Source: Blastococcus sp. (GTDB taxonomy: Bacteria; Actinomycetota; Actinomycetes; Mycobacteriales; Geodermatophilaceae). Taken from it: DNA of 36,631 bases. Every line of letters starts with the position of its first letter. The stretch's first letter is position 1. The notes under the pieces are model-generated. The model made no database searches. It saw nothing but the letters and a program-made list of their open reading frames with translations, and was not told the origin of the DNA. Position numbers and translations under genes: made by a program. The stretch is from positions 1-36,631 of the forward strand of contig JAOPWJ010000032.1 in the NCBI GenBank assembly GCA_025965715.1. The letters run 5' to 3'. Of this stretch, positions 2,847 through 25,375 are shown in pieces.

Positions 2847-2898
2847 CTGCTCTCGCGCACGGCTGCGCGGCGACGTCGGACGGATTCGGGGAGGCGTG

Positions 2899-4072: not shown

Positions 4073-4202
4073 CCGCTCAATCCTGTCGGCGCATCTACCA
4101 GCGCGCAGGAACCGGGGACCCACGTACTCCCGGGGTGAATCGGCATCGATGCCGTAGGGCCACTTCTTCCCGCCCGAACCCGTCAGCTAACCCGGTCAGC
4201 GG
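4073..4202 (+). ncRNA. ydaO/yuaA-type c-di-AMP riboswitch
   Basis: The leader carries the conserved blocks of the ydaO/yuaA RNA in the right order: CGCTCAATCCTG, CCGGGGACCCA, CGGGGTGAATC, GCCGTAGGGC, and CCCGAACCCGTCAGCTAACC. The closing helix is CCGCT (4073-4077) with AGCGG (4198-4202). This RNA class binds cyclic di-AMP and in actinobacteria often controls cell-wall hydrolases. The hydrolase ATG at 4228 lies 25 nt downstream. CTTCTTCC inside the aptamer (4163-4170) is perfectly complementary to GGAAGAAG (4207-4214), which overlaps the Shine-Dalgarno GAAGGAG (4211-4217). That suggests control of translation initiation by base pairing; the direction of control cannot be told from sequence. 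Confidence 0.9.
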
Positions 4203-4227
4203 ATCTGGAAGAAGGAGCTACTCCCCC

Positions 4228-5199
4228 ATGTCCACGAGTCCCTCGGTGCTGCCCCCCACGGGCCGCCCGACCTCCCACCGCGCACCCCGACCGACCGCAC
4301 GCCGCCGTCCCCGCCTGCGGGCGCTGACCGTGGGCCTCGCCGCCACTTTGGCGCTCGGGGCCACGGCGTCCCTGGCTCCCTCGGCGGCGGCCCGCACCCC
4401 CATGTACTTCGGGTCCGTGGCCGGCGGCTACGAGCAGGCCCAGGCCGGAACCGGCGAGAACCTGGCCAACCACGCCTACTCGACCTTCAGCAGCAAGCCG
4501 CCGACCGCCCGGATGATCACCGTCCACGCGGGCAGCGCGGGCTGGCGCCAGGTGGCCAAGGCTGCCCCGGGGTCGGCGCTGTACAACGACATCGTCCGGT
4601 GGGCGCAGACCATCAAGGCGCGCGGCGGCCACGTCATGGTGGCCTACAACCACGAGCCCGAGGCCGCTGCCGGTGGTTCGCGCGGCTCGAGCGCGGACTT
4701 CATCGCCGCGTATCGACGCGTGGTCAACATCTTCGACTCGCAGGGTGCCTCGAACGTCGAGTGGACCTGGCAGATGACGGCGTACGCCTTCCGGACGAAG
4801 CCCGGCGACAGCCGCGCGGCAGCGAAGTGGTACCCGGGCGACGCCTACGTCGACAACGTCGGTGCCGACGCCTACAACTGGGCGAGCTGCGGGCACGGCA
4901 ACGGGAAGTGGAACGAGCTGTCCTGGCTGATGGAGCCGGTCATCGCCTTCGCCCGCGCCCACGGTAAGGCCGCCTCGATGCCGGAGTTCGCCACGAACAG
5001 TGACGCGCGCCGGAGCCAGTGGATCCGCAACGCCCACCAGTTCTTCCTGAACAACCAGGACATCCTGACCGCGGCGTTCTACTTCAACCGCCCGCCGACG
5101 GTGAAGGCCAACTCGGACTGCCGTTGGGCGCTGCAGAACTCCACCGAGTACGACGCCCTGGGTGACATCGCACGGGACCGCGCGCACTTCACCGCCTGA
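4228..5199 (+). CDS. Secreted GH26-like glycoside hydrolase under c-di-AMP riboswitch control
   Basis: A 323-aa secreted protein. A basic N-region (ARRRPRLR) and a hydrophobic segment ending in SAAA near residue 55 make a signal peptide. The mature part resembles GH26-type (clan GH-A) barrels: YNHEPE with candidate acid/base Glu143, VEWTWQ, GADAYNW, and MPEFA with candidate nucleophile Glu253. GH26 enzymes include beta-mannanases; the true substrate here is open. The start is ATG at 4228-4230, with GAAGGAG at 4211-4217. The c-di-AMP riboswitch directly upstream suggests a role in remodelling the envelope or surface glycan in step with c-di-AMP levels (osmotic or cell-wall state). It converges on the propeller gene and ends in a repeat-plus-terminator spacer. 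Confidence 0.8.
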   Translation: MSTSPSVLPPTGRPTSHRAPRPTARRRPRLRALTVGLAATLALGATASLAPSAAARTPMYFGSVAGGYEQAQAGTGENLANHAYSTFSSKPPTARMITVHAGSAGWRQVAKAAPGSALYNDIVRWAQTIKARGGHVMVAYNHEPEAAAGGSRGSSADFIAAYRRVVNIFDSQGASNVEWTWQMTAYAFRTKPGDSRAAAKWYPGDAYVDNVGADAYNWASCGHGNGKWNELSWLMEPVIAFARAHGKAASMPEFATNSDARRSQWIRNAHQFFLNNQDILTAAFYFNRPPTVKANSDCRWALQNSTEYDALGDIARDRAHFTA

Positions 5200-10489: not shown

Positions 10490-10667
10490 GCGTGGTGACC
10501 CTCCGAAGTCGTGGGCCCGCCCCGTCATCCATCTGGAGCCCACTGATTCCCTGCAGCATTACAGAGAGTGGCGAGAGGATCCATCCCGTACCGGAAGTCT
10601 CGCCCGTCCGAGTGGCCGCAACGGGCGGAATGTGCCCCAACGGGAGCCGTCGGTGGTATTCACTGCC

Positions 10668-10757: not shown

Positions 10758-12707
10758 ATGCAGAACGGAACTGCCGCCAACGGTATGCGGCTAGGGGATT
10801 ACCTGGAGTTGCTGCGTCGGCAGTGGCTGACCGTGCTGATCTGCCTGGTCCTGGGTATCGGGCTGGCCATCGCCTACATCCAGTTCGCCCCCCGGGAGTA
10901 CCGCTCCCAGACCTCGGTCCTGGTCACCGCCACCGATCCCGGGAGCGCCGCGACGACGGACCGGGCCGTGGCCATCAATCTCGACACGGAGGCCCAGCTG
11001 GTGACCGCCACCGAAACGGTGGCCGTCGCCGCGAAGGCCCTCGGCGTTCCCGCCGACCAGGCGCGCCAGGTCGCCGACCGCGTGGGCGTCAGCGTGCCGC
11101 CGAACACCGAGATCCTCGACATCACCTACACCGGCGACACGGCGGCCTCGGCGCAGAAGGGCTCCCTCGCCTTCGCCCAGGCCTACCTCACCCAGCGCAG
11201 CGCCACGGCACAGGCTGCCCTGGACGCGCAGGACGCCAACCTCCAGGCGCGCATCGATGCGGTCAACGCGCAGCTGGCGGGGGTTCTCAAGGCCGGCGCG
11301 GCCATGCCGGCCGGCTCTCCCGAGCTCGCCCGTAACAGCGACCAGGCCGCCGGCCTCTACAGCCAGCTGGACACCTTGACCGCATCGCAGAACCGGGTGC
11401 GCTCCCAGACGATCACGCCTGGCCAGATCGTCACCCAGCCGGGGCTCCCCGACTCACCCAGCAGTCCCGACCCGCTGATCGCCACGGCGGCGGGCGTGCT
11501 CCTGGGTCTGCTCGCCGGGATCGGCCTGGCCGCCGTGCGCAACCGCAACGACGACGTGATCCGCACACCGGAGGACCTCTTCCAGCGCACCCGCGTGCCC
11601 GTCGCGACGGTGCTCTCCGAGCGCCTGCACGGGGGCGAGATCTCGGTCCTGCAGCCGCTGAGTGCCGACGGCCGCGGATACGCCCGGCTGCGCAATCTCG
11701 TCACCACGGGCCTCGACGAGAGCTCGCGCCGCGTCGTCCTCGTGACCGGGGTCCGTCGCGGTGGCGGCCCGGTCGCGGCGAACCTGGCCGCCTCGCTCGC
11801 GCGTGCCGGCGAGGAGGTCGTCCTGGTCTGCGCCGACGTCTTCGGAAGCACTGCCGACGCACTGCTGGGCAACGCCCCGGCTGACGGACTGGCCGAGGTG
11901 CTCGACGGCGAGCACCCGGTCGACGGCGTGCTGCGCACGTTCCCCGGGGTTCCGAGCCTGCGGATCCTCGGGCCCGGCCGCGACATCGACCGCGCGGATG
12001 CGCTCCTGCAGACCCGGAGCCCGCGCAAGCTGGTCGATCGGCTCCTGGGGACGGCGTCCTGCATCGTGATCGAGGCGCCGCCCACGACCGACAGTGCCGA
12101 CGCCCAGACGCTGGCCAACGTCGCCGACCTGGCGGTGCTGGTCGTCGAGGCCGGGCCGACGACGGCCCGCGAGGTCCTGGACGCCTGTGCGCAGCTCGAG
12201 TCGGTCGGCACTCCGGTGCTCGGCGCGGTGATCGCCCGGTACGGGCGCGACAGCAATCCCGACCAGCGGCCGCGCACGCCCACGGCGGAGGCCACGGCCA
12301 CGGCACAGCCGGGGTCGGGAGTCGAGGCCGGCTCGGAGGTCGAGGACTCCCCCGCCGACGGCGTTCCCCACACCGCGACGGTAGAACCCGCGACGGCTTC
12401 GTCCGAGGCCGCCGGCGACCGCGCGGCCGAGGAGGACGTCACCGAGGAACGGACTCCGGCACCCGCCGGGGCGACTCCGCCGACCGCGCCGGCGGTCGCG
12501 CAGGTGCCTGACCGGCCCGCCCCGCCGAACGGCGCCGGCCAGCCCACCGCCGGCGGCGCGACCGTGGCGGAAGCCACCCGGCTGGCGCAGACAGCGGGCA
12601 CCAACGGCACGGCCCCCAACGGGACAGCGCCCAACGGGACGGGCAGCCAGCCGGGAGCGCGCACCGAGCTCATCCCGCCGGGCGCCCGGGGCCCCGCTCC
12701 TCGATGA
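10758..12707 (+). CDS. Wzz-type chain-length/co-polymerase protein fused to a degenerate BY-kinase domain
   Basis: A 649-aa inner-membrane protein of the Wzz/CpsC-CpsD type, which normally governs polysaccharide chain length. Residues 12-43 hold the first membrane helix, about 44-238 the external domain, and about 239-261 the second helix. Residues about 305-500 have the fold of a bacterial tyrosine kinase (NLAASLARAGEEVVLVCAD). The Walker A region reads TGVRRGGGPVAANLA, without the Lys and Ser/Thr of GKST. Walker A' has VCAD for IDAD, and Walker B has VIEAPP for IIDTPP. The tail (about 500-649) is Ala/Pro/Thr/Glu-rich, has NGTAPNGTAPNGT repeats and contains no tyrosine, so the usual Tyr cluster is missing. 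GGGAG precedes the ATG at 10758. It is probably a structural pseudokinase. It overlaps the next gene by 4 nt (ATGA). Confidence 0.88.
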   Translation: MQNGTAANGMRLGDYLELLRRQWLTVLICLVLGIGLAIAYIQFAPREYRSQTSVLVTATDPGSAATTDRAVAINLDTEAQLVTATETVAVAAKALGVPADQARQVADRVGVSVPPNTEILDITYTGDTAASAQKGSLAFAQAYLTQRSATAQAALDAQDANLQARIDAVNAQLAGVLKAGAAMPAGSPELARNSDQAAGLYSQLDTLTASQNRVRSQTITPGQIVTQPGLPDSPSSPDPLIATAAGVLLGLLAGIGLAAVRNRNDDVIRTPEDLFQRTRVPVATVLSERLHGGEISVLQPLSADGRGYARLRNLVTTGLDESSRRVVLVTGVRRGGGPVAANLAASLARAGEEVVLVCADVFGSTADALLGNAPADGLAEVLDGEHPVDGVLRTFPGVPSLRILGPGRDIDRADALLQTRSPRKLVDRLLGTASCIVIEAPPTTDSADAQTLANVADLAVLVVEAGPTTAREVLDACAQLESVGTPVLGAVIARYGRDSNPDQRPRTPTAEATATAQPGSGVEAGSEVEDSPADGVPHTATVEPATASSEAAGDRAAEEDVTEERTPAPAGATPPTAPAVAQVPDRPAPPNGAGQPTAGGATVAEATRLAQTAGTNGTAPNGTAPNGTGSQPGARTELIPPGARGPAPR

Positions 12708-14242
12708 GCCGGGTCCGACCAGCCGCTCCCTACGGACCGATGGTCACCCGGCCGCTACTGGGCCGGGAGATCGGCGCACCGGCGCCCGGTGTCCCGGGCC
12801 AGGAAATCAGCCCGCCGGCACTCGGCGTGCCCGGCCGGCCCGGCCGGCCCGGCCGGCCCGGCTGGCCGCTGACCGCGCTGCTCGTGCTCTATCCGCTCTG
12901 GTGGGCGCTCGGCATGGGCACGCTCGCGGTGTTCCTGCTGGCGGTGCCCATGGCACTGCAGCTGTGGCGGCGGCGGCCGGTGATCGTCCCGCCGGGCTTC
13001 GGCCTGTGGCTGTTGTTCCTGGTGTGGGTGCTGGCCAGCACCATCATGCTGCCGCAGAATCCCCCGGGCACTCTGCCGGACACCGTCTCCGGCCGGTTCG
13101 TCTCCGTGGCGTTCAACCTCGCCGGATACCTCTCGGCCACGATCATCCTGCTGTACGCCGGAAACCTGACCGAGGAGGAGTTCCCCCGCCGCAGGCTCGT
13201 GCGCCAGCTCGGCTTCTTCTTCATGGTCGTGCTCGCCGGCGGCCTCCTGGGCACGTTCGCGGCGCGCTTCGAGTTCACCTCGGTCGTCGAGGTGCTGCTT
13301 CCGACGCAGGTGGCGCAGAACGGCTTCGTGCGCAGCCTCGTGCACCCCGCGGCCTCGCAGCTGCAGGACGTCCTCGGCTTCACGTCGCCGCGGCCGTCCG
13401 CACCGTTCGGCTACACCAACACGTGGGGCAACTGCCTGGCGCTGCTGCTGGGCTGGTTCGTCGTCAGCTGGCTGCGGGACGGCTCGGCCCGCCGGCGGCT
13501 GATCGGTCTCGTCGGGCTCGGCCTCACCGCCATCCCGGTCGTCTATTCGCTCAACCGCGGACTCTGGGCCGGCCTCGGCCTGATCGTCATCTTCATGGCG
13601 GTCCGGATGGCCATGCGCGGTCACCTCGCGCTGCTCGGCGCGCTGCTCGCCGGGCTGCTCCTGGCGGGGGCGCTCGTCGCTGCCTCACCCCTGGCGACCA
13701 TCGTCGAGGCGCGGTTCGACAACCAGAAGAGCAACGCGATCCGCGCGTTCACGCTCGACCGCACGCTCGACGTGGTGACCGAGTCGCCGATCCTCGGCTT
13801 CGGCGCGACCCGCGCGGCCCTCGGGAGCAGCAACTCCATCGCGGTGGGGGCCGACGCCAAGTGCCCGCGCTGCGGCAACCCGACCCTGGGCAGCAACGGG
13901 CAGCTGTGGCTGCTGCTGATCGCCCAGGGCCTCGGCGGCGCCGCGCTCTACATCGGTTTCTTCGTCCGGTCCCTCTGGGCCTACCGCCGGGACCGCACAC
14001 CGATCGGCGACGCCGGGCTGCTCGCCCTCGCCCTGCCGCTGTTCTTCATGCTGGTCTACAACGCGCTGACCATGCCGCTGGTGATCTCGTTCCTCTCCCT
14101 CGCACTGCTCTGGCGCAACCGGCAGGAGAACGCCCGGCAGGAGAACGCCGGGCAGGAGAGCCCCCAGGCAGACAGCGCACTGATGACCGCCCCCGCGGCA
14201 GCCCTCGCGGGGCCGGTGCGCATGCGGCAGGGCCGGCCGTGA
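12704..14242 (+). CDS. O-antigen ligase / Wzy polymerase-like membrane protein
   Basis: A 512-aa protein with roughly ten to twelve membrane helices and the Wzy_C/O-antigen-ligase pattern: FGYTNTWGNCLALLL (235-249) and SLNRGLWAGLGL (282-293) ahead of a large outer loop. Such proteins polymerise lipid-linked repeat units or transfer finished glycan to an acceptor; sequence does not tell which. The outer loop has an unusual CPRCG (387-391). The N-terminus carries PGRPGRPGRPGW, from a 9-bp DNA repeat. The C-terminal tail has RQENARQENAGQE repeats. The start is ATG at 12704, overlapping the Wzz-like stop (ATGA). Its own stop overlaps the next start (GTGA). Confidence 0.86.
   Translation: MSRVRPAAPYGPMVTRPLLGREIGAPAPGVPGQEISPPALGVPGRPGRPGRPGWPLTALLVLYPLWWALGMGTLAVFLLAVPMALQLWRRRPVIVPPGFGLWLLFLVWVLASTIMLPQNPPGTLPDTVSGRFVSVAFNLAGYLSATIILLYAGNLTEEEFPRRRLVRQLGFFFMVVLAGGLLGTFAARFEFTSVVEVLLPTQVAQNGFVRSLVHPAASQLQDVLGFTSPRPSAPFGYTNTWGNCLALLLGWFVVSWLRDGSARRRLIGLVGLGLTAIPVVYSLNRGLWAGLGLIVIFMAVRMAMRGHLALLGALLAGLLLAGALVAASPLATIVEARFDNQKSNAIRAFTLDRTLDVVTESPILGFGATRAALGSSNSIAVGADAKCPRCGNPTLGSNGQLWLLLIAQGLGGAALYIGFFVRSLWAYRRDRTPIGDAGLLALALPLFFMLVYNALTMPLVISFLSLALLWRNRQENARQENAGQESPQADSALMTAPAAALAGPVRMRQGRP
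12830..12865 (+). repeat. In-frame 9-bp tandem repeat encoding PGR units
   Basis: Three perfect copies of CCCGGCCGG followed by one variant copy (CCCGGCTGG) encode PGRPGRPGRPGW in the cytoplasmic N-terminus of the ligase-like protein. The unit is in phase with codons, so gain or loss of units would change length without a frameshift. Confidence 0.85.
14120..14160 (+). repeat. In-frame 15-bp repeat encoding RQENA units
   Basis: CGGCAGGAGAACGCC occurs twice in tandem (14120-14134, 14135-14149), followed by a partial third copy. It encodes RQENARQENAGQE in the hydrophilic C-terminal tail of the ligase-like protein. Confidence 0.75.
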
Positions 14243-15480
14243 CCGACGACCGCCTGCAGCACCTGCAGGACGTCGGGCGCCTTCTGTGGCCGGACCCCCT
14301 CGAGCTGCGGATCGGCGGTAGGGCGCCCCTCGACGGCGCCGTCCACCGCGAGTACCTGCTGCTGCCCAACGGCCGCCGTCCCCGGTTGCTGGTTCCCCGC
14401 GGACGGCGAGCTGCCACGGGCGCGCTGCGCGGATACGGCGTGGGCCGCGGACGCTCGGCCCGCTGGCAGGCCGCCGGGCTCGCACTGGGCATGGCCACCG
14501 GGCTGGCGCCACTGGTGCTGCGTGACCGGCTACGGCTCGTCGGCACCGGGGGCACGTCGATCGGCGGCGCGGCGTCCATCGAGTCGCACCTGGCGGAGGT
14601 GCTGGGCCGCGAGGTGCTGCTGAGCATGTATCTGGGCGCGCCTCGCGCCAACCGCAAGCCGGTGCTGCAGGTGCTCTCCCCGCAGGGCCGCACGCTGGCC
14701 TACGTCAAGGTCGGCGTCGACCCGCTCACGTGCCGTCTGGTCGGCGACGAGGCCGCGGCGCTCGAGACGCTGGCCGCGGCCGGGCTCCGGCAGTCGACCG
14801 TGCCCGCCGTGCTGCACAGCGGGCGCTGGAACGGCCTGGAACTCCTGGTGCAGTCACCGCTGCCGGTCGGCAGCAGCCGCGGCCGCCCCGACCGCGACCG
14901 AGTGGTGGCCGCGCAGGTGGAGGTCTCGGAGATCGGCCGGACCGCGGAGGGACCGCTGGCGGGGACGCCGTTCTGGGCGGCACTGACCGAGCGGATCGGC
15001 GGGCTGCCGGACACCCCTGCGGCCCGCACCCTGGCCGACCTGCGGACCGGGATGGAGAAGCGGTTCGGCGACGTTCCGCTGCGCCTGGGCGCCTGGCACG
15101 GCGACTGGACACCGTGGAACACCGCACTGGCCGGCGACCAGCTCCTCGTCTGGGACTGGGAGAGGTTCGCCGCACCGGTGCCGGTCGGCTTCGACGCGGT
15201 GCACTGGATGCTGCAGACCGACCTGGTCAACCGTCTGGCCGATCCGAGTGAGTCCACCCGGCGTTCCCTGGCTTCGGCACCCACCGTGCTGGAACCCTTC
15301 GGAATGACCACCGAGCAGGCACGGGCGACCGCTGTCTGCTACTTCGCCGAGCTGGCGACCCGGTACCTGGCCGACCGCCAGGTGGAGGCCGGGGCCCGGC
15401 TCGGGGACGTCGGCGAATGGCTGCTCCCGGCCATCGGTGCGGCACTGGACGGCGAACGAGACGGAAGAGGCACGGAATGA
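14239..15480 (+). CDS. APH/choline-kinase-fold phosphotransferase, probable sugar or lipid kinase
   Basis: A 413-aa soluble protein. The C-terminal half has the aminoglycoside-phosphotransferase kinase core: Lys157 in LAYVKVG, a catalytic loop AWHGDWTPWN (285-294; Asp289, Asn294), and a metal-binding Asp306 in VWDWERF. The N-terminal ~150 residues are Arg/Leu-rich and I do not recognise them. Given its place inside the operon, it more likely phosphorylates a small glycan precursor or decorates the polymer than confers drug resistance; that is inference. The start is GTG at 14239, overlapping the upstream TGA (GTGA). The stop overlaps the next ATG (ATGA). Confidence 0.8.
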   Translation: MTDDRLQHLQDVGRLLWPDPLELRIGGRAPLDGAVHREYLLLPNGRRPRLLVPRGRRAATGALRGYGVGRGRSARWQAAGLALGMATGLAPLVLRDRLRLVGTGGTSIGGAASIESHLAEVLGREVLLSMYLGAPRANRKPVLQVLSPQGRTLAYVKVGVDPLTCRLVGDEAAALETLAAAGLRQSTVPAVLHSGRWNGLELLVQSPLPVGSSRGRPDRDRVVAAQVEVSEIGRTAEGPLAGTPFWAALTERIGGLPDTPAARTLADLRTGMEKRFGDVPLRLGAWHGDWTPWNTALAGDQLLVWDWERFAAPVPVGFDAVHWMLQTDLVNRLADPSESTRRSLASAPTVLEPFGMTTEQARATAVCYFAELATRYLADRQVEAGARLGDVGEWLLPAIGAALDGERDGRGTE

Positions 15481-16382
15481 CACTCACTGCGACGCTGCGT
15501 CGATCGCCGGCGTTGAAGCGAGCCGTGCAAGCGGTCACCCGGAGCGCGGGGCTGGCCACCAGCCGGTGGCGGATGACGCCTGGCTTCCTCATCATCGGCG
15601 GCCAGCGCTGCGGCACGACGTCGATGTACCGGACGCTGAGCCAGCACCCCGCCGTCCTCAAGGCCGTGCGGCACAAGGGTGTGCACTACTTCGACACCGA
15701 CTACGACCACAGCATGGCCTGGTACCGGGCGCACTTCCCGCTCGAGCGCACCGCCGCGGCGGTGGAGCGCCGGACCGGCGTCCGTCCGCTCACGTTCGAG
15801 TCGAGCCCCTACTACGGCTTCCACCCGCTGTCCGCCGAGCGCATCGACCGCGACCTGCCCGGCGTCAAGGTGATCGTGCTGCTCCGCGACCCGGTGGAAC
15901 GCGCCTACTCGGCGCACGCGCACGAGCTGGCCCGCGGCTTCGAGGACCAGGAATTCGAGAAGGCGCTGGCCCTCGAGGAGACCCGGCTGGCCGGTGAGGC
16001 CGAGCGGCTGGTCGCCGAGCCGCACTACGTCAGCCACGCCCACCAGCACCAGGGCTACCTGCAGCGCGGGCGCTACGTCGACCACCTGCAGCGGCTGGAG
16101 AAGGTGTTCGGCCGCGACCGCATGCACGTGGTGGACAGCCACCGCTTCTTCACCGACCCGGAGCCCGTCTACGACGCCGTCCTGGAGTTCCTCGGCCTGC
16201 CGCACACCGGCTACCCGCTGTTCGAGCAGCACAACGCCCGACCCCGCTCCCCGATGCCGGCCGAGCTGCGCAAGCGGCTGGAGGCGCACTTCGAGCCCTA
16301 CGACGAGCGACTGGTCTCCTGGCTCGGACACCCGGTGAGCTGGCGCCCCTCCGTCGACCGATCGGAACCACTTCCCAGGTGA
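15477..16382 (+). CDS. Sulfotransferase 1 (heparan-sulfate-sulfotransferase-like)
   Basis: A 301-aa PAPS-dependent sulfotransferase. The 5'-phosphosulfate loop is IIGGQRCGTTSMY (39-51). The 3'-phosphate-binding segment is VLLRDPVERAYSAHAHE (134-150, with Arg137 and Ser145). A downstream GYLQRGRYVDHL block is typical of glycan N/O-sulfotransferases related to the NDST group. It would transfer sulfate to a sugar hydroxyl or amine of the glycan. The start is ATG at 15477, overlapping the kinase stop. The first ~33 residues are basic and amphipathic. The stop overlaps the flippase start (GTGA). Family call is strong; acceptor unknown. Confidence 0.9.
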   Translation: MTLTATLRRSPALKRAVQAVTRSAGLATSRWRMTPGFLIIGGQRCGTTSMYRTLSQHPAVLKAVRHKGVHYFDTDYDHSMAWYRAHFPLERTAAAVERRTGVRPLTFESSPYYGFHPLSAERIDRDLPGVKVIVLLRDPVERAYSAHAHELARGFEDQEFEKALALEETRLAGEAERLVAEPHYVSHAHQHQGYLQRGRYVDHLQRLEKVFGRDRMHVVDSHRFFTDPEPVYDAVLEFLGLPHTGYPLFEQHNARPRSPMPAELRKRLEAHFEPYDERLVSWLGHPVSWRPSVDRSEPLPR

Positions 16383-18001
16383 GCACGACTGCACCCGGGG
16401 CGCCGGCGAAGGTGGCCGGCTCCGCCGGCCTGCCCTCCATCGCCCGGGGGGGCGCACTCAACCTGGCCGGCGCCGGCATCTCCGCGATCGCGGGGGTGCT
16501 GCTCGTCGTCGTCGTCACCCGTGCCCTTCCGCAGCGGGACGCCGGCGTGTTCTTCGCGCTCACCTCGGTGTTCCTGCTCGCCGAGATGGTGGCGCGGCTG
16601 GGTACCGGCACGGGGCTCGTCTACTTCATCGCCCGGTTGCGCTCGCTGGGCCGCACCGACCGGATCCGGGCCTTCCAGCGGGTCGCCCTCACTCCGGTGG
16701 TCGTGCTCTCCCTGATCACCTGCGCGGTGCTCGTCACCTGGGCGCCGGAGTTGGCGCGGCTGGTCGGTGGGCCGGGCGACCAGACGCGCACCGCCGTCGT
16801 GGTCCTCGCCGTCCTGCTGCCGGTGACGACGCTGTCGGACACCCTGCTGGCGGCGACCCGCGGGCACGCGACGATGGTGCCCACGGTCGTGCTCGACCGG
16901 GTGGGCCGGCCGCTCCTGCAACTGGGTCTGGTCGCCGTCGCCGTCATGGCCGGCTCCACCGCGGTGCTGGCGGGTGCCTGGGCGCTGCCCTGGGCGGTGT
17001 CGGCGGCGCTGGCGTGGGTGTGGCTGCTCCGCCTCGGGCGGGAGCTGCACGTCGGGCGACACAGCGCCGAGGCGCACCCGCGAGCCGGTGCCGACGACGA
17101 CGCCGCGCCCTGGCGGGAGTTCTGGTCGTTCACCGGGCCCCGGGCGGTCAACAGCCTGGCCCAGCTCGCACTGCAACGCCTGGACATCATCCTGGTCACC
17201 GTCCTGATCGGACCGGCCCAGGCCGCGGTCTACACGGCCGCTACCCGGTTCCTGGTGGTCGGCCAGCTCACCAGCACCGCGATCGCCACTGCCGCCCAGC
17301 CGCGCCTGGCCGAGCAGCTCGCCGTGGGCGACAGGGCCTCGGCGAAGGCGGTCTACCAGTCGGCCACCGCCTGGATCGTGCTGCTGAACTGGCCGCTCTA
17401 CCTGCTGTGCGCGGTGTTCGCGGACGTCGTCCTGGCCGTCTTCGGCAACGGCTACGACGCCGGCCGGCCGGTCGTGCTGGTCCTGGCCGGCGCGATGCTC
17501 GTGGCCAGCGGCTGCGGCATGGTGGACATGCTCCTGAACATGGCCGGCCGCACCTCCTGGACGCTGGCCAACTCGGTCGTCGCACTGGCGGTGATGGTCG
17601 GCGTCGACCTCGTGCTCATCCCGCGCCTGGGGATCCTCGGCGCAGGCATCGGCTGGGCGGCGGCCATCATCGCCAACAACGCCCTGCCGCTCACCCAGCT
17701 CGTCGTCTCCATGGGCCTGCACCCCTTCGGGCGCGCCACGCTCCGGGCCGGGGGCCTCTCGGCCGTCTGCTTCGGCATCCTGCCCGGGGCGGCCGCGCTC
17801 CTGCTCCCCGACGACCTGCTCGCGGCGGCCGGCGCGGTCCTCGTCGGGCTCACCGTCTTCCTGACCGTCAGCCTGCGGCGACGGGAGGCCCTCGGCCTGC
17901 CCGCACTGAGCGCCCTGCGCCCGAACCGGCGGCCCGCCGCCCCGGACGCCGAGTCGCACGCCCGCCACGCCGCCCAGCCCCCCTCCGGAGGAACCCGATG
18001 A
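16379..18001 (+). CDS. Wzx-like polysaccharide flippase (MATE/MOP superfamily)
   Basis: A 540-aa protein with about 12-14 membrane helices, matching the polysaccharide-biosynthesis flippase family: ARGGALNLAGAGISAIAGVL near residues 22-41, ALQRLDIILV mid-protein, and LGILGAGIGWAAAIIANN in the second half. It would move polyprenyl-linked glycan units across the membrane. The last ~40 residues are hydrophilic. The start is GTG at 16379, within GTGA of the upstream stop. The stop overlaps the next ATG. It is the only flippase seen in the locus, and its place between two sulfotransferases suggests that at least part of the sulfation happens on the cytoplasmic side. Confidence 0.9.
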   Translation: MSTTAPGAPAKVAGSAGLPSIARGGALNLAGAGISAIAGVLLVVVVTRALPQRDAGVFFALTSVFLLAEMVARLGTGTGLVYFIARLRSLGRTDRIRAFQRVALTPVVVLSLITCAVLVTWAPELARLVGGPGDQTRTAVVVLAVLLPVTTLSDTLLAATRGHATMVPTVVLDRVGRPLLQLGLVAVAVMAGSTAVLAGAWALPWAVSAALAWVWLLRLGRELHVGRHSAEAHPRAGADDDAAPWREFWSFTGPRAVNSLAQLALQRLDIILVTVLIGPAQAAVYTAATRFLVVGQLTSTAIATAAQPRLAEQLAVGDRASAKAVYQSATAWIVLLNWPLYLLCAVFADVVLAVFGNGYDAGRPVVLVLAGAMLVASGCGMVDMLLNMAGRTSWTLANSVVALAVMVGVDLVLIPRLGILGAGIGWAAAIIANNALPLTQLVVSMGLHPFGRATLRAGGLSAVCFGILPGAAALLLPDDLLAAAGAVLVGLTVFLTVSLRRREALGLPALSALRPNRRPAAPDAESHARHAAQPPSGGTR

Positions 18002-18942
18002 CCGCGCTGGACCGAAGCCCGTCGGCGCCGCCGCCGCCGCTCGAGCTCACCCCGTGGCGGCTGGCGTCGCTGACCGCCCGTGGACTGCTCTCCGACCGTC
18101 GGGAGCGCCGCCGGGAACGCGCCGGCCGTCACCGCGCAGGGCCGCGGCGGGTGAGGGATACCCGGCTGCGCGCACCCGTCTTCGTGCTGGGTGCGCCGCG
18201 CTCGGGGACGACGTTCCTGGGTTCCTGCATCGGGGCGCTGCCCGAGGTGTCCTACCACTTCGAGCCGCGGGTGACCAAGGCCGCGGCTCGGCTGGTGTAC
18301 GAGGGCACGTGGTCGGAGGAGCGGGCAGCCCGCGTCTTCCGCCGGTCCTACCGGCTGCTCGTGCTGGCCGCCGGAGAGGGCGGCCGCCGGTTCGTGGAGA
18401 AGAACCCGGAGAACTGCTTCGTGGTGCCGTTCCTGGTCCGGGCCTTCCCCGACGCCCGGTTCGTGCAGATCATCCGTGACGGGCGGGACGTCGCGGTCTC
18501 CCACGCGGAGAAGCCGTGGCTCTCGGCGAGCTCGGCCGGCAGCGGCCGGCGCGGCCGCGGCGGCCAGGCCTGGGGGCCCTGGGCCCGCTGGTGGGTGGAG
18601 CCGGAGCGGGCGGAGGAGTTCGCCGCGGCCTCCGACCTCACCCGGACGGCATGGAGCTGGCGGCGGTTCACCGAGGCAGCCCGCACCGCACTGGCCCAAC
18701 TGCCGCCCGACCGCGTGCTGACCATTCGCTACGAGGACGTCGCGCGGCACCCTCAGGAGGCCGCCGAGACCATCGCCGCGTTCTTCGGGCATCCGGAGGC
18801 GCCGCAGTCGCTGCGCGCGGCGCTGGCGACCGCCGACCCGAGCTCGATCGGCCGCTGGCGCGAGGCGCTGGACGAGGACGGGCTGGCCGACGTCGAGCGC
18901 GAGGCCGGCCCCCTGCTCCGCGAGTTGGGGTACGAGGCGTGA
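17998..18942 (+). CDS. Sulfotransferase 2 (Sulfotransfer_3-like)
   Basis: A 314-aa sulfotransferase. The phosphosulfate loop is VLGAPRSGTTFLGS (63-76). RFVEKNPENC (131-140) and FVQIIRDGRDVAVSHA (155-170) follow, the second being the 3'-phosphate site. LTIRYEDVARHPQE near the C-terminus is typical of the family. About 55 basic, Pro-rich residues precede the fold. GGAGG at 17987-17991 supports the ATG at 17998, which overlaps the flippase stop (ATGA). The stop overlaps the next gene (GTGA). It differs clearly from the other three sulfotransferases, so it probably modifies a different position or sugar. Confidence 0.9.
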   Translation: MTALDRSPSAPPPPLELTPWRLASLTARGLLSDRRERRRERAGRHRAGPRRVRDTRLRAPVFVLGAPRSGTTFLGSCIGALPEVSYHFEPRVTKAAARLVYEGTWSEERAARVFRRSYRLLVLAAGEGGRRFVEKNPENCFVVPFLVRAFPDARFVQIIRDGRDVAVSHAEKPWLSASSAGSGRRGRGGQAWGPWARWWVEPERAEEFAAASDLTRTAWSWRRFTEAARTALAQLPPDRVLTIRYEDVARHPQEAAETIAAFFGHPEAPQSLRAALATADPSSIGRWREALDEDGLADVEREAGPLLRELGYEA

Positions 18943-19907
18943 GCGCGACCGATCCCGCACCCACCGGGGGCCTCCTGGTCACCGGTCTCCCCCGCACCGG
19001 CACCAGCTGGGTGGGCAAGATGCTGGAGGCGTCCGGCGAGGTCGTCTACGTCAACGAGCCGATGAACCCGCAGCATCCGCCGGGCCACTCCCCCGGCGTG
19101 CTCGATGCCCGGGTGACCCATCGGTTCCAGTACATCAGCGACGAGGACGACGCCCCCTGGCGCCGCGCCTTCGAGCACACCCTCGCCCTGAAGTACCAGT
19201 TCCGCGCCGAGGTTCGGCGGAACCGGTCCGCGTACGACCTCGCCCGCATGGCCAAGTACGGCACGGCCTTCACGGCGGGGCGTCTGCGCGGCCGCCGGGC
19301 GATGCTGGACGACCCGTTCGCCATCTTCTCCACCGGGTGGCTGTCGCAGAACATGGGCTGCGAGTCCGTCGTCCTGGTGCGGGACCCCGTGTCGTTCGTG
19401 GGCAGCTGGCGGGCCCTCGACTGGTCGATCCACTTCCACGAGCTGCTCGAGCAGCCGGCCCTGGTGCGTGACCACCTCGGCCCGTACGTGGACCGGATGC
19501 GCAGCCTGGTCGGGTCGCCGGACTGGCTGGCCCGCACCTGCCTGCTCTGGGAGGCGACCTACGACGTCGTCGACCGCGCGTTCCGCGACCTGCCCGGCGT
19601 GCACCTGGTCCGCTACGAGAGCCTCGTCCAGGACCCGATGGGAGGGTTCGCCGACCTCTACCGGCGGTTGGGCCTCACCTGGTCCGGGGACGCCGAACGA
19701 CGTGTCCGCGAGGCGACGACGGAGAAGGCCGGCGCGGAGCAGGGGTCGCACCGCTGGTCACTGCGCGGCGGGCTGTCGCGTACCGCCTACCGGCCGATGG
19801 GGCAGGCGACCGCACTGTCGACCTACCGGACGCGGCTGACGCAGGCGGAGGTCGACCGGGTGCGAGAGCTCACCTCGCCGGTGGCCGCCCGGGTGCTGGG
19901 GCCGTAG
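18939..19907 (+). CDS. Sulfotransferase 3
   Basis: A 322-aa sulfotransferase-fold protein. The phosphosulfate loop is LVTGLPRTGTSWVGKML (13-29), VYVNEPMNPQ follows, and the 3'-phosphate site is VVLVRDPVSFVGSWRAL (144-160). VHLVRYESLVQDP lies further on. The start is GTG at 18939, overlapping the previous stop. It is the last gene of the unbroken overlap chain; the next gene is on the other strand, 42 bp away. The acceptor is unknown. Confidence 0.88.
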   Translation: MSATDPAPTGGLLVTGLPRTGTSWVGKMLEASGEVVYVNEPMNPQHPPGHSPGVLDARVTHRFQYISDEDDAPWRRAFEHTLALKYQFRAEVRRNRSAYDLARMAKYGTAFTAGRLRGRRAMLDDPFAIFSTGWLSQNMGCESVVLVRDPVSFVGSWRALDWSIHFHELLEQPALVRDHLGPYVDRMRSLVGSPDWLARTCLLWEATYDVVDRAFRDLPGVHLVRYESLVQDPMGGFADLYRRLGLTWSGDAERRVREATTEKAGAEQGSHRWSLRGGLSRTAYRPMGQATALSTYRTRLTQAEVDRVRELTSPVAARVLGP

Positions 19908-19949
19908 CCGGCAGGAAGGCCGTCGCGCTGGGGACCGGCCCCCTGAAGA

Positions 19950-20732
19950 TCAGCTGCGCGGCGCGCGGATGCGGGTGAGCAGCGCGCCGATCAGGAGCGC
20001 CAGCGCGAAGGGCGCGTCCTCGCGGAGGTAGCGGCGGAACAGCCTGCGCGGCTCGTGCGCCAGGCGGAACAGCCATTCCAGCCCGAGTGGCCGCATCCAG
20101 CTGGGGGCGCGCTGCAGGTCACCGGCGGCGAAGGGCAGGGCGGCGCCGCAGCCCAGCCACCAGGTGCTGGGGAGAAGGCCGGAGAAGCCGGAGATGATCT
20201 GCTCCTGCTTCGGGAACCCGAGACCGACGAAGACGAGGTCCGGAGCCGCGTTCACCACGGCGTCCCGGCACGTTCCGAGCTCGCCCTCGTCGAGCTCGAA
20301 GCCGCGGGGCGGCGAACAGGTGCCGGCGATCTTCAGGGTCGGGTAGGCCAGCTGCAGGGCCTCGGCCGCACGGTCGGGCACCCCGGGCTCGCCGCCGAGC
20401 AGGTAGACGGAGCGGCCGTCGGCAGCCGCGGCCGCGCTCAGCGACCAGAGCAGGTCCGCTCCGGTGACGCGCGCCGGGATCGGCCGGCCGGACAGGCGCG
20501 CGGCCCACACGACCGGGGCGCCGTCGGCGACGCTCAGCTGGGCGGTGCGGATCAGCTCGGCCAGCCGGGGGTCCCTGGCGGCGTGCCGGAGGTGGTCGAC
20601 GTTCGGCGTGGCGATCCAGCCGCCACGGCCCGCCCGCAGCTCGGCGCGGACGCGCTCGACGACCTCTTCCTCGGTCAGCGGATCAATCGGTAGCCCGCCG
20701 ACCTCGACGCGCTTACGCTCCGTCGCTGTCAT
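19950..20732 (-). CDS. WecG/TagA/CpsF-family (GT26) glycosyltransferase
   Basis: A 260-aa protein with the full GT26 signature: ATPNVDHLRHAARDP, SVADGAPVVWAARLSG, VTGADLLWSL, VFVGLGFPKQEQII, and a C-terminal GLEWLFRLAHEPRRLFRRYL. GT26 enzymes add the second sugar (for example ManNAc or ManNAcA) to a polyprenyl-diphosphate-linked acceptor at the membrane face. The start is ATG at 20730-20732 (MTATERKRV); a GTG 36 nt upstream is possible but adds no family sequence. It is antisense to the rest of the glycan genes and divides the plus-strand set in two. It is divergent from the fourth sulfotransferase. Confidence 0.9.
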   Translation of the reverse strand: MTATERKRVEVGGLPIDPLTEEEVVERVRAELRAGRGGWIATPNVDHLRHAARDPRLAELIRTAQLSVADGAPVVWAARLSGRPIPARVTGADLLWSLSAAAAADGRSVYLLGGEPGVPDRAAEALQLAYPTLKIAGTCSPPRGFELDEGELGTCRDAVVNAAPDLVFVGLGFPKQEQIISGFSGLLPSTWWLGCGAALPFAAGDLQRAPSWMRPLGLEWLFRLAHEPRRLFRRYLREDAPFALALLIGALLTRIRAPRS

Positions 20733-20843
20733 GCGTAGATCATGACCCGCTCGCAGGTGGGGCGACACATCTTCGCGCGCGGTCTCACCCCTTGGAGGTC
20801 ACCAGGGGTCACCGATGCTCTCTGTGATGGCATTGTCGTCCCC

Positions 20844-21842
20844 GTGGTAAGCACCTCCGCGGGGAACAAGCCCCACCCGTCGTCAGGGCAGGACATTACG
20901 GACCGGCCGACGGTGCTCTATCTGGGCGGTCTAGGACGCAGCGGCACAACGGTGCTCGAGCGCGTGCTGGGCGAGCTGCCGTCCACCTGTTCGGTGGGTG
21001 AGCTGGTCCACCTGTGGCAGCGCGGCGTCCTCGACGACGAGACCTGCGGCTGCGGCAAGCCGTTCTCCCGGTGCCCGTTCTGGAACGAGGTGGGCCGGCG
21101 GGGCTTCGGCGGCTGGGACCGGGCGCTGGCGGCCCGCATGGAGGAACTGCGTCCCCGGGTCGACCGCACACGGTTCATCCCGCGGCTGCTCGCCCCGCGA
21201 CTGCTGGGCCGGCACCGAGCCGCGCTTCGTGAGTACGTGACGACGTTCCTCCAGCTGTACCGCGCGATCAGCGAGACCGCCGGTGGCGCCGTCGTCATCG
21301 ACTCCAGCAAGCACTCCTCGCTGGCTTTCTGCCTCCGGACGGAACCGGCCATCGACCTCCGGGTCGTGCACGTGGTCCGTGACAGCCGCGGGGTGGCCTA
21401 CTCCTGGACCAAGGAGGTCCGGCGTCCGGAAGCCACGGCCGAGGCCGCCCTGATGACTCGCTACTCGCCCTCCCGCTCGGCCGCCCTGTGGGTGGGCCAC
21501 AATCTCTTCTTCGGCCTCCTGGGGCTCCTGGGGACGTCCAGGCGGCTGCTGCGCTACGAGGACTTCGTCGCCACGCCCGGTCCGGTTCTCGAGGAGCTCG
21601 CGGAGTTCGCCGGGCTGTCACTGGCGCCGGGAGCACTGGACTTCCTCGACGGCTCCTCGGTGATGCTCTCGCCGTCGCACACGGTGGCCGGCAACCCCAT
21701 GCGCTTCCGCACGGGCGCGACCACGCTGCGCCGGGACGACGCCTGGCGATCGGAGCTGCCGCGCGGTCGCCGCTGGCTGGTCTCCGTGCTGACCGCGCCG
21801 CTGCTGGCACGCTACGGCTACCTACGGCGGTCCTCCCGGTGA
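20844..21842 (+). CDS. Sulfotransferase 4, Cys-motif type
   Basis: About 332 aa. The phosphosulfate loop is YLGGLGRSGTTVLERVL (26-42). A CGCGKPFSRCPFW block (68-80), VIDSSKH (151-157) and VVHVVRDSRGVAYSWTKE (174-191) are typical of one bacterial sulfotransferase group. I chose GTG at 20844 because the in-frame ATG at 20742 adds 34 residues that look non-coding and would leave only 9 bp to the divergent GT26 start. No good ribosome site precedes 20844, so the start is uncertain. The stop overlaps the GT2 start (GTGA), making a two-gene unit. Confidence 0.85.
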   Translation: MVSTSAGNKPHPSSGQDITDRPTVLYLGGLGRSGTTVLERVLGELPSTCSVGELVHLWQRGVLDDETCGCGKPFSRCPFWNEVGRRGFGGWDRALAARMEELRPRVDRTRFIPRLLAPRLLGRHRAALREYVTTFLQLYRAISETAGGAVVIDSSKHSSLAFCLRTEPAIDLRVVHVVRDSRGVAYSWTKEVRRPEATAEAALMTRYSPSRSAALWVGHNLFFGLLGLLGTSRRLLRYEDFVATPGPVLEELAEFAGLSLAPGALDFLDGSSVMLSPSHTVAGNPMRFRTGATTLRRDDAWRSELPRGRRWLVSVLTAPLLARYGYLRRSSR

Positions 21843-22774
21843 GCACCCCCGCGACCGGCCCCCTGCCCACCGTCGGCGTGGTCGTGCCCACCCACGACCG
21901 GCCGGAGCTGTTGCGCGAGACCCTGCGGTCGGTCCTCGCCCAGGACACGACGGCCGAGCTGGACATCGTCGTGGTGTTCGACCGCACGACGCCCGACCAG
22001 GAGCTGACCCGGCTGAGCATGCCCGGCCGGCGGGTCCGGGTCATCCCCAACATCCGCACGCCGGGTCTGGCCGGCTCCCGCAACACCGGGATCCTGGCCC
22101 TGGACACCGACTGGGTCGCCTTCTGCGACGACGACGACACCTGGGCCCCGACGCGACTGCGGGCCCAACTGGAGCGGGCGGCTCGTCACCCCGAGGCGGA
22201 GCTCCTCACGACGTCGATCTGCGTGGCCTACGAGGGCGCCGAGACACCACGCCTGGCCGGCACCGGCACCGTCACACGGGCCGACCTCCTCCGCAGCCGC
22301 ATGGCGATGCTGCACAGCTCGACGGTGCTGGTCCGCCGCTCGGCTCTGGTGGGCTCCCTGGGGCTGGTCGACGAGACGATCCCCGGCAGCCAGAACGAGG
22401 ACTGGGACCTGCTCCTTCGCGCCGCGAGCCGCGGACCCATTCAGCACATCGACGAGCCGCTCGTACGCGTGCTGTGGGGCCGGTCGTCGCAGTTCTCCCG
22501 CCAGTGGGAGACGCGGGTGTCATCCCTGGAGTGGATGCTCCAGCGCCATCCCGACATCGCCGGTGACGACCGAGGTGCGGCACGGGTCTTCGGGCAGCTG
22601 GCGTTCGGCAGCGCCGCGCTGGGACGCCGCCGCGCGGCCGCCCAGTGGGCCCGCCGTGCCGTGGGCCGGCGGATGACGGAGCCCCGGGCGTTCCTGGCGC
22701 TCGCCGTGGCCGGGGGCCTGTTCTCCGCCGAGGCGGTCATGTCGTTCCTGCACCGCCGCGGCAAAGGCCTGTAG
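21839..22774 (+). CDS. GT2-family (GT-A fold) glycosyltransferase
   Basis: A 311-aa glycosyltransferase. VGVVVPTHDRPELLRETLRS (12-31) is the nucleotide-sugar fold. AFCDDDDTW (94-102) carries the metal-binding Asp motif, and SQNEDWDLLLR (184-194) supplies the likely catalytic base. The C-terminal ~90 residues are helical and Arg/Ala-rich. The start is GTG at 21839, overlapping the sulfotransferase stop. It is one of only two non-initiating glycosyltransferases in the locus. Donor and linkage cannot be inferred. Confidence 0.9.
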   Translation: MSTPATGPLPTVGVVVPTHDRPELLRETLRSVLAQDTTAELDIVVVFDRTTPDQELTRLSMPGRRVRVIPNIRTPGLAGSRNTGILALDTDWVAFCDDDDTWAPTRLRAQLERAARHPEAELLTTSICVAYEGAETPRLAGTGTVTRADLLRSRMAMLHSSTVLVRRSALVGSLGLVDETIPGSQNEDWDLLLRAASRGPIQHIDEPLVRVLWGRSSQFSRQWETRVSSLEWMLQRHPDIAGDDRGAARVFGQLAFGSAALGRRRAAAQWARRAVGRRMTEPRAFLALAVAGGLFSAEAVMSFLHRRGKGL

Positions 22775-22988
22775 CCGGTCGGGGCTGTGCGGGCGGCGAG
22801 GGCAGGGCCCGGTGGCGTGCGGCTTGGCCAGACCATCTGACAGGGCACGTCGGCGACCCGGGCCACGCTGGAAGGCGACCTCGTTCACCGTCGGACCCAC
22901 TGCGCAGCCCTCGAACGCAGCTGCGAATCTGGCGACCGGACAGGACGGTTCCCGGGCGACTGCCGGCAGAAGGACCGAGACCCGGAGG

Positions 22989-24506
22989 TCAGTACGCGCC
23001 GCGGGAGCGGAGGACCGCGGACGCCGTCTTCCAGAGGATCAGGAGATCCAGGGCGAGCGTCCAGTTCTCGACGTAGCGCAGGTCGAGGCGGACCGACTCC
23101 TCCCAGGAGAGGTCACTGCGACCGGAGATCTGCCACAGGCCGGTCAGGCCGGGCTTGACCAGCAGCCGACGGCGGATGGAGGTGTCGTAGCGCTCCACTT
23201 CCTGCGGCAGCGGCGGTCGGGGACCGACGAGCGACATCGAGCCACCGAGCACGTTGAACAGCTGGGGCAGCTCGTCGAGTGAGAACCGGCGCAGCCACCG
23301 CCCGACTGGCGTCACCCGCGGGTCCTGGCGCATCTTGAACAGCAGGCCCTGACCCTCGTTGCTGGCCAGGAGCTCGGAGAGCTTCGCGTCGGCGCCGACG
23401 ATCATGCTGCGGAACTTGTACATCGTGTACCGGTCGCCGTAGGCCCCGACGCGCTCCTGTCGGTAGAGCACCGGACCCGGCCCGGAGAGACGCACGGCCA
23501 CGGCGATGCCCAGCAGCACCGGTGCGATGAGGACGAGGGCGCAGGCCGCGCCGGCCCGGTCGAGGGCACCCTTGAGCACCCGCTTCCAGCCCGAGAACAC
23601 CGGCTCCTCGATGGAGAGCAGCGGCAGACCGACGAAGGGCCGGATGTGCAGCCGGGGACCGGCGATCTCGACCATGCCCGGCGACACCAGCAGCTCGATC
23701 CCGCTGCCCTCGAGCTGCCAGGAGAGCTTGCGCAGGTACAGCGCCGCGGTCTCGCTGGCCGAGGTGACGGCCACGGCATCGGCGCCGCGCCGCTGCACCA
23801 CGTCGACGACATCATCGAGGCCACCGTCGATCGGCACCCCGATCGACTCGACCCGCGCGGCTGCGCCCGGAGTCGTGACGCACGCGGCCACCACCTCCAT
23901 GCCCGCGTAGTGGTCGACCTGGATCCGCCGGACCAGGTCGGCGACGGCGGCGTCCCGGCCCACCGCGACGACCCGCTTGACGCAATGGCCGCCGCGCCGG
24001 GCTCGCTGGAGCCACTTCCGCGCGATGACGTGGGAGATGAGCGACCCCAGCGTCATGGCCGGAACGGTGAAGACCACGAACGAGCGCGCGATCTCGAGTT
24101 GGCCCGCGTAGGACACGACACTGACGGCGGCGAGCAGCCACAGGCCCCCGCGCGCCACCTTGCGGAACTCCTCGCTGCCCGTTCCGAAGAACTTCGGCGC
24201 GTAGCCACCGGACATGCACACGGCGGCCGGCCAGAGGACGGGAAGCGCCAGGCTCAGCCAGGCGTAGGGCGATCCGGGCAGCGCCTCCGCCGGGCGGATG
24301 ACCAGCATCACCACGCCGGCGACAACGCCGACCAGTGCGTCGACGGTGATCAGCACCGCCCGGTAGCGCCGGCTCCAGCGGGGTTCGCGGCGGCGGGCCA
24401 CCACGGCGCGCGGAAGCGCGGCAGGCATCGGGGCAGCGGTGTCCGAGACACGGCCGGGGGCCGGTGGGCGCAGCTCTGCATGACCTGCGCCGGCATCAAC
24501 GAGCAT
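22989..24506 (-). CDS. Polyprenyl-phosphate sugar-1-phosphate transferase (WbaP/CpsE-like initiating enzyme)
   Basis: A 505-aa membrane enzyme that starts glycan synthesis by moving a sugar-1-phosphate to undecaprenyl or decaprenyl phosphate. Four membrane helices lie in about 48-163, then a CoA-binding-like cytoplasmic domain, then a re-entrant/membrane segment (about 313-338). The catalytic module follows: VLYRQERVG, MYKFRSM (362-368), KMRQDPRVTPVGRWLRR, FSLDELPQLFNVL with Asp411-Glu412, and SLVGPRPPLPQE (425-436). The start is ATG at 24504-24506 behind GGGGGG. It is convergent with the GT2 gene; the 214-bp gap between them shows no clear terminator. It shares a strand with pth, 192 bp upstream. 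Confidence 0.93.
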   Translation of the reverse strand: MLVDAGAGHAELRPPAPGRVSDTAAPMPAALPRAVVARRREPRWSRRYRAVLITVDALVGVVAGVVMLVIRPAEALPGSPYAWLSLALPVLWPAAVCMSGGYAPKFFGTGSEEFRKVARGGLWLLAAVSVVSYAGQLEIARSFVVFTVPAMTLGSLISHVIARKWLQRARRGGHCVKRVVAVGRDAAVADLVRRIQVDHYAGMEVVAACVTTPGAAARVESIGVPIDGGLDDVVDVVQRRGADAVAVTSASETAALYLRKLSWQLEGSGIELLVSPGMVEIAGPRLHIRPFVGLPLLSIEEPVFSGWKRVLKGALDRAGAACALVLIAPVLLGIAVAVRLSGPGPVLYRQERVGAYGDRYTMYKFRSMIVGADAKLSELLASNEGQGLLFKMRQDPRVTPVGRWLRRFSLDELPQLFNVLGGSMSLVGPRPPLPQEVERYDTSIRRRLLVKPGLTGLWQISGRSDLSWEESVRLDLRYVENWTLALDLLILWKTASAVLRSRGAY

Positions 24507-24698
24507 GGTCCCCCCAGACCGCCATCAACTACCGAGCGTAGTCGCCGGGCTACACCTTGTCGTGGGCCTGACCAGGGGGTTCCCTGCTCCAGCCGCCCGG
24601 GACCCGGTAACCCTCACACTGCGTCAACCGACCGTCAATACGCACCGTAGCGGTTCACCCAATTGGGAGGACGCCGGCACGGCGACGGAAAGGCCTGC

Positions 24699-25355: not shown

Positions 25356-25375
25356 GCCCTCGCTCAGCGATCGCC

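Follow-up and report, generated by a model that had tools for sequence, protein, structure and literature searches.

Contig C70 of a Blastococcus sp. metagenome-assembled genome (MAG; 3.55 Mb in 263 contigs, 80% complete) is the stretch of 36,631 nucleotides analysed here and is called the window throughout. Judged from gene order and protein identity, its locus at positions 10758 to 24506 is of the wps-1 type, a kind of Wzx/Wzy polysaccharide locus already known from Actinoplanes missouriensis, with an enlarged set of sulfotransferases (STs). We consider it likely that the product is a sulfated polysaccharide. Two of the four STs, ST1 and ST4, are a core pair of this locus type, and the other two, ST2 and ST3, are extras that occupy a slot between the flippase gene and a glycosyltransferase gene.

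Gene order shared with wps-1

Eleven genes lie between 10758 and 24506, and plus-strand neighbours overlap by 4 bp in an operon-like manner. On the plus strand are a Wzz-type co-polymerase (10758..12707; PF02706), a Wzy/WaaL-type polymerase with 10 hydrophobic segments (12704..14242; PF04932), an APH-fold kinase (14239..15480), ST1 (15477..16382; PF00685, E 5e-16), the Wzx flippase (16379..18001; PF01943, Polysacc_synt), ST2 (17998..18942; PF13469, E 6e-27) and ST3 (18939..19907; PF13469, E 1.5e-12). A glycosyltransferase of family GT26 (WecG/TagA/CpsF; 19950..20768; PF03808, E 6.5e-55) follows on the minus strand, and then ST4 (20742..21842; PF13469, E 1.3e-7) and a GT2 glycosyltransferase (21839..22774; PF00535, Glycos_transf_2, E 6.6e-22) on the plus strand. 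Last, on the minus strand, comes the initiating enzyme, a polyprenyl glycosylphosphotransferase (22989..24506; PF02397, Bac_transf, E 3e-65), which lies above the cut-off of TIGR03025 and matches the WcaJ and WbaP models of NCBIfam below their own cut-offs. With initiating transferase, flippase, polymerase and co-polymerase all in the window, the Wzx/Wzy pathway set is complete; every component listed in an earlier sequence-only reading was found, by Pfam or, for the kinase, by fold match.

Some starts need care. As drawn, the GT26 and ST4 genes overlap at 20742-20768; both starts are uncertain, and the true ones probably lie further inside. Residues 1-50 of ST4 have a pLDDT (predicted local distance difference test) below 50 in its AlphaFold2 model. 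For ST1, the ATG at 15477, which forms an ATGA overlap with the kinase gene, appears by eye more likely than 15417.

The published wps-1 cluster of A. missouriensis (AMIS_7280-7380) encodes WpsA (GT2), WpsB (ST), WpsC (GT26), WpsD (DUF4262), WpsE (GH26), WpsF (methyltransferase), WpsG (Wzx), WpsH (ST), WpsI (protein-kinase-like), WpsJ (Wzy) and WpsK (Wzz), and an adenosine 5'-phosphosulfate (APS) kinase-family gene, AMIS_7390, adjoins it (Tezuka and Ohnishi 2026, PMC13390465). Taken in reverse, from K to A, its genes follow the order found in the window: Wzz-Wzy-kinase-ST-Wzx-slot-GT26(antisense)-ST-GT2. In genome G186, which we take to be A. missouriensis, among other things from its gene order, the cluster is found at about 0.78 Mb, and an APS kinase is encoded on the far side of Wzz. 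Eight core proteins of the window are 38-57% identical to their G186 counterparts: Wzz (WpsK) 38%, Wzy (WpsJ) 49%, the kinase (WpsI) 43%, ST1 (WpsH) 56%, Wzx (WpsG) 48%, GT26 (WpsC) 55%, ST4 (WpsB) 57% and GT2 (WpsA) 55%.

The two loci have in common the two core STs and a GH26 relative, and differ mainly in the slot. Where wps-1 has the F-E-D genes (methyltransferase, GH26, DUF4262), the window has ST2 and ST3, and its GH26 relative (32% identity to the G186 protein over 146 amino acids, E 1e-13) lies upstream instead. By Pfam, the slot of Actinoplanes-type loci holds GH26 and DUF4262 (locus L079) and a methyltransferase (L082); these genes are accessory, being also absent from L028-L031. The initiating transferase and secreted propeller/PKD proteins adjoin the window locus, whereas the former is not in the published wps-1 gene list and the latter are absent from the available description of wps-1. 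Conversely, the APS kinase is adjacent to wps-1, and none is encoded within the window.

A different polymer would fit some of these genes. PF04932 covers ligases as well as polymerases, and GT26 includes TagA of teichoic acid synthesis, so that the PF04932 protein might be the ligase of a cell-wall or lipid-linked glycan rather than the polymerase of a free exopolysaccharide or capsule. We find this unlikely, since a single PF04932 protein accompanied by Wzz and Wzx is consistent with polymerisation, and in A. missouriensis the sporangium matrix is where the wps-1 counterparts of the Wzx/Wzy genes act (PMC13390465). Knockouts of wps-1 impair sporangia, and a sulfated polysaccharide was predicted there, not measured (PMC13390465). 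Severe sporangium defects followed loss of wpsH, the ST1 counterpart, and of AMIS_7390, and the wpsH knockout resembles the wzx and wzy knockouts (PMC13390465).

The sulfotransferases and their sulfate donor

All four STs score above the cut-offs of PF00685 or PF13469 and have no membrane segments. As the sequence-only reading had stated, each retains intact 5' and 3' motifs for binding 3'-phosphoadenosine 5'-phosphosulfate (PAPS), and the four have diverged widely from one another: the most extensive pairwise match spans 194 amino acids at 25%, and the other five pairs align over 18-30. The arginine of the 5' motif is kept in 74/74 ST1, 3/3 ST2, 8/10 ST3 and 83/83 ST4 sequences; the two ST3 sequences without it have no residues at that position. 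Ratios of nonsynonymous to synonymous substitution (dN/dS) against the nearest relatives are 0.11 for ST1, 0.16 for ST2, 0.16 and 0.26 for ST3 and 0.17 for ST4, where Wzx gives 0.16-0.20, GT2 0.22 and Wzz 0.36; against L025, a locus without ST4, ST1-ST3 give 0.20-0.28. The four STs are thus under purifying selection and, because the ratios are low, are working genes rather than chance open reading frames. Nor are the extra STs an artefact of one assembly, since a second genome of the genus, G036, likewise has Wzx, ST2 and ST3 one after another on a contig of 3.4 kb (84% DNA identity); a second G036 contig carries Wzz, Wzy, the APH-fold kinase, ST1 and Wzx. Among named genomes, the best ST4 match (84%) is from a MAG labelled Blastococcus.

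Among solved structures in the PDB, ST1 comes closest to 3rnl, a bacterial ST whose substrate is not stated, and to 3-O- and N-sulfotransferases of heparan sulfate (E 5e-18 to 6e-11). For ST2 the likeness found in the PDB is to tyrosylprotein sulfotransferases and spans residues 59-165 (E 1e-7), and ST3 weakly matches Mycobacterium tuberculosis STF1 (2zq5, E 2e-5). Within the slot between Wzx and GT26, ST2 was seen only in L025, L026 (= L044) and G036, whereas most copies from Geodermatophilaceae, and a few other loci, have ST3. This near confinement to one family, the likenesses of ST2 and ST3 and the secreted propeller proteins close by could mean that the glycan is sulfated by ST1 and ST4 only, and that ST2, ST3 or both are cassette genes for another target such as a secreted protein or a lipid. 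We regard this as possible but doubtful. Both genes sit inside the polysaccharide operon with 4-bp overlaps, in a slot that elsewhere holds modification-type genes; moreover, the likeness of ST2 is limited to the PAPS-binding half, and a tyrosylprotein sulfotransferase is also the best fold match of ST4.

The best genomic evidence for sulfation is the linkage of the locus to APS kinase. In 47 of 69 genomes the contig that carries ST4 also encodes an APS kinase no more than 20 kb away, compared with about 0.38 expected for one randomly placed copy; where contig numbering was ambiguous, the contigs were matched by their lengths. The count joins 16/20 genomes, nine of the 20 having been chosen after an APS kinase had already been seen nearby, with 31/49 taken next by rank; it covers 69 of the 80 loci described below, and the genomes are related, so that the events are not independent. 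A single strong APS kinase is present in 19 of the first 20 genomes. The MAG also has one, with an intact P-loop and 54% identity to that of G186. Its CysH has two cysteine pairs when read by eye. Two such pairs mark APS rather than PAPS reductases, and PAPS would therefore be left for sulfation. PAPS genes and STs in one cluster have been called a hallmark of sulfated polysaccharide by the authors of the Vibrio sp. KMM 8419 study (PMC11641403).

Spread of the locus type and the case for a sulfated product

A scan of the genome_contigs set with an alignment of ST4 found 285 relatives, of which the best 80 loci were kept (L042-L046 come from the same genomes as L028, L030, L026, L027 and L032; they are counted in the 80- and 66-locus tallies and were dropped from the motif counts). 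All seven of ST4, GT2, GT26, ST1, the APH-fold kinase, Wzy and Wzx occur together in 62 of the 80, and in 57 of the 66 loci of at least 17 kb. Taken singly among these best 80, ST1 is present in 68, the kinase in 66 and Wzz in 62. The hosts are mostly genera that we take to be Micromonosporaceae, with Glycomyces, Actinomadura, Geodermatophilaceae and other MAGs. All 60 genomes drawn from the genus to which A. cyaneus belongs encode an ST4 counterpart, with identities of 79% or more.

At class level the APH-fold kinase was used as marker instead of ST4. As a phylum-scale marker ST4 was dropped: 61 of 396 genomes match it at E 1e-60, with surroundings unexamined and some genomes multicopy. The kinase marker is found in 15 of 112 genomes of the window's own family; fetched DNA from the other 14 showed several core genes in order in nine, a partial set in one and the kinase alone in four. 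Loci L034-L037, whose four genomes share a single genus code within Geodermatophilaceae, encode a kinase homologue with identities of about 32-39%, and the other core genes were not seen in the fetched DNA. A class-wide draw gave the marker in 54 of 394 genomes, in 12 family codes. The 54 class-sample regions, which are the non-own matches and come from 53 genomes (G701 twice), hold ST1 in 49, Wzy in 48, Wzz in 47, Wzx in 45, GT2 in 42, ST4 in 31 and GT26 in 3, with ST1, Wzy and Wzx together in 43. Gene order and content loosen with distance. In these regions (L143-L196) ST1 accompanies the kinase with GT26 nearly absent, and the chemistry of the repeat unit therefore probably differs between lineages.

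Such co-occurrence bears on the idea that the STs act on unrelated small molecules or lipids and are in the locus by chance. STs for lipids and small oligosaccharides do exist in rhizobia and mycobacteria (PMC8205485), and the genome of the window encodes two further PF13469 STs outside the locus (L038, G000:C129; L039, G000:C72). We nevertheless judge chance placement very improbable, given that ST1 and ST4 accompany Wzx, Wzy and glycosyltransferase genes across many genera, and that the knockout of the ST1 counterpart behaves like loss of the flippase or polymerase (PMC13390465).

The number of STs per locus separates the window from most relatives. Among the 66 long genome_contigs loci, 59 have two STs, three have three, four have one and none has four; among 48 class-sample loci, 23 have two, 15 one, six three, two none and two four, the extras in the last two being weak and non-orthologous. 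Of eleven Geodermatophilaceae loci, some of them truncated by contig ends, seven have three STs, and four are found in the window. Four STs per locus are unusual. The sequence-only reading had thought several STs in an actinobacterial Wzx/Wzy locus unusual, and this proved wrong: the long loci normally have two, 31/48 class-sample loci have at least two, and two are published for wps-1. We accordingly rejected the presence of several STs, taken alone, as exceptional.

The case for a sulfated Wzx/Wzy glycan is inferential but well supported, through synteny with wps-1, the APS kinase linkage and the heparan-sulfate likeness of ST1; the locus type, on the other hand, is already published and is common. 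Several observations weigh against a sulfated product. Sporangia without wpsB, the ST4 counterpart, look normal by microscopy, and roughly tenfold fewer spores are released (PMC13390465). The AlphaFold2 model of ST4, the only ST for which a fold was predicted, has a sulfotransferase fold whose nearest neighbours, at modest TM-scores (template modelling scores), are protein-tyrosine sulfotransferases, though this likeness tells little about substrate. No APS kinase is near the locus in 22 of the 69 genomes, partly owing to short contigs, and that of the MAG is on contig C94, the locus being on C70. ATP sulfurylase was not found in the incomplete assembly with PF01747, and PF01507 gave CysH alone. 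Across the class, the low counts of GT26 and ST4 make a uniform product unlikely. Lastly, no sulfate measurement was found for any member of the wps-1 type in the available portions of the published accounts.

Sulfate has been established chemically in other bacterial systems. The xss (synechan) locus of Synechocystis PCC 6803, compared by gene content, is also a Wzx/Wzy/polysaccharide co-polymerase locus with two STs of distinct subfamilies, and sulfate was measured there; unlike the window, it has eight glycosyltransferases and cyanobacterial regulators, and the available text mentions no APH-fold kinase (PMC8205485). The capsule clusters of Vibrio sp. KMM 8419 and Cobetia marina KMM 1449 combine STs and PAPS-synthesis genes in one polysaccharide cluster, with sulfate shown chemically, but belong to marine Gammaproteobacteria and use ABC-transporter capsule export, unlike the window (PMC11641403, PMC11766843). 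Bacterial sulfated exopolysaccharide has been called exclusively cyanobacterial (PMC8205485, PMC13390465), despite these chemically proven gammaproteobacterial cases (PMC11641403, PMC11766843). A survey of other genomes was not found in the main text of PMC13390465, from which the search terms homolog, ortholog, genomes, distribut and widespread are all absent, and literature searches for Geodermatophilus polysaccharide sulfotransferase and for Micromonosporaceae polysaccharide biosynthesis sulfotransferase returned no papers. The conserved locus and its APS kinase linkage turn the proposal made for A. missouriensis into a testable prediction for many actinomycetes, several of them named strains; Modestobacter sp. 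DSM 44400 (L043) and Blastococcus sp. KM273128 (L042) are two such carriers of the locus. Enzymes that sulfate defined sugars would be useful for making sulfated polymers, and the leads offered here are the ST1/ST4 core pair, the extra STs, the kinase, a secreted propeller protein linked to the locus and a co-polymerase that lacks its Walker A lysine.

Kinase, possible pathway and flanking genes

Sequence searches of Pfam, PDB and NCBIfam gave nothing useful for the APH-fold protein. Its AlphaFold2 model (mean pLDDT 90.9) matches APH(3'), APH(4), glucosamine kinase, LicA and FN3K in the PDB by Foldseek (best E 5e-6; TM-scores by query 0.29-0.46). The catalytic residues are kept almost throughout the 75 sequences compared: Lys in 73, Glu in 74, and HGD with Asn (HxDxxxxN) and the Asp in all 75. 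The protein is probably an active kinase that is needed to make the product, with a sugar or small molecule as its presumed substrate; such a need is suggested by the knockouts of WpsI and Wzy, which share one severe class (PMC13390465). The C-terminal domain of Wzz is BY-kinase-like and has no Walker A lysine (GxxxxGK[ST]), the window reading GVRRGGGPVA. A G..GK[ST]-like pattern occurs in 3 of 68 Wzz homologues, and the window protein is below the cut-off of the tyrosine-autokinase models of NCBIfam.

In the pathway that we envisage, the glycosylphosphotransferase would place hexose-1-phosphate on undecaprenyl phosphate, and GT26 and GT2 would extend it to a short repeat unit. Counting enzymes gives perhaps three sugars per unit; two were assumed by the authors for wps-1 (PMC13390465). 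The core ST1 and ST4 and the accessory ST2 and ST3 would sulfate the lipid-linked unit, with its sugars as putative acceptors, in the cytoplasm, where PAPS is made. In this presumed order of steps, sulfation should precede flipping, since the STs have no membrane segments. Wzx would then flip the unit and Wzy polymerise it, and Wzz, its Walker A lysine lost, may set the length of the presumably surface or extracellular polymer without control by autophosphorylation.

A broader and more tentative possibility, which we hold to be somewhat less probable than its negation, is that actinomycetes have an old and widely conserved apparatus for making sulfated polysaccharide outside the cell, a parallel to the cyanobacterial one, with two core STs, the APH-fold kinase and linked PAPS synthesis as its basis. 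Lineage-specific modification enzymes would plug into it, in the present case ST2 and ST3, giving Geodermatophilaceae a densely sulfated, glycosaminoglycan-like coat, with the linked propeller/PKD protein as the surface receptor or tether of the polymer.

The boundaries 10758-24506, taken from the sequence-only reading, are probably too narrow, as the locus probably extends to the left over a GH26 relative and the propeller/PKD proteins. The GH26-like protein (4135..5199, plus strand; PF02156, E 6e-6), a relative of WpsE, has an N-terminal hydrophobic segment and is probably secreted. Close relatives of it adjoin the locus in two cases, L024 (589 bits) and L027 (299 bits); none was seen in the other eight of L024-L033, several of which are cut by contig or fetch ends. 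Two secreted beta-propeller proteins are encoded next on the minus strand, one with weak DUF5122/Rax2 matches (5364..7418) and one with PKD (7532..10543; PKD_4, E 8.5e-20). They are paralogous (59% identity over 689 amino acids), and the latter gene is transcribed divergently from Wzz.

Relatives of the propeller/PKD protein at 7532-10543 are present in 10/10 of the loci L024-L033, one of them weak at 68 bits, and in 7 of the best 80 genome_contigs loci, four of these Geodermatophilaceae, many others being cut near that point. In 33 of the 51 genomes tested (G186, ten with the window or L024-L033-type loci, and part of the class sample) such a relative is encoded no more than 20 kb from the kinase gene: 30 of the 33 outside family code f91 and G186, and 3 of the 18 inside. 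Because some genomes have several propeller copies, with as many as 10 matches, such proximity is likelier to arise by chance. A role of this protein as receptor or tether of the polymer is our guess.

The right flank is housekeeping, with a peptidyl-tRNA hydrolase-like gene (named by eye), ribosomal protein L25, phosphoribosyl pyrophosphate (PRPP) synthetase, a GlmU-like protein and tRNA-Gln. The open reading frame at 24655-25557 was rejected as an arginine-rich wrong-frame reading; the real gene there, by eye, is the peptidyl-tRNA hydrolase-like one at 24699-25355. On the far left, near the locus, a membrane protein of the TauE/SafE type (sulfite exporter family; PF01925) is encoded on the plus strand at 2896-3951.

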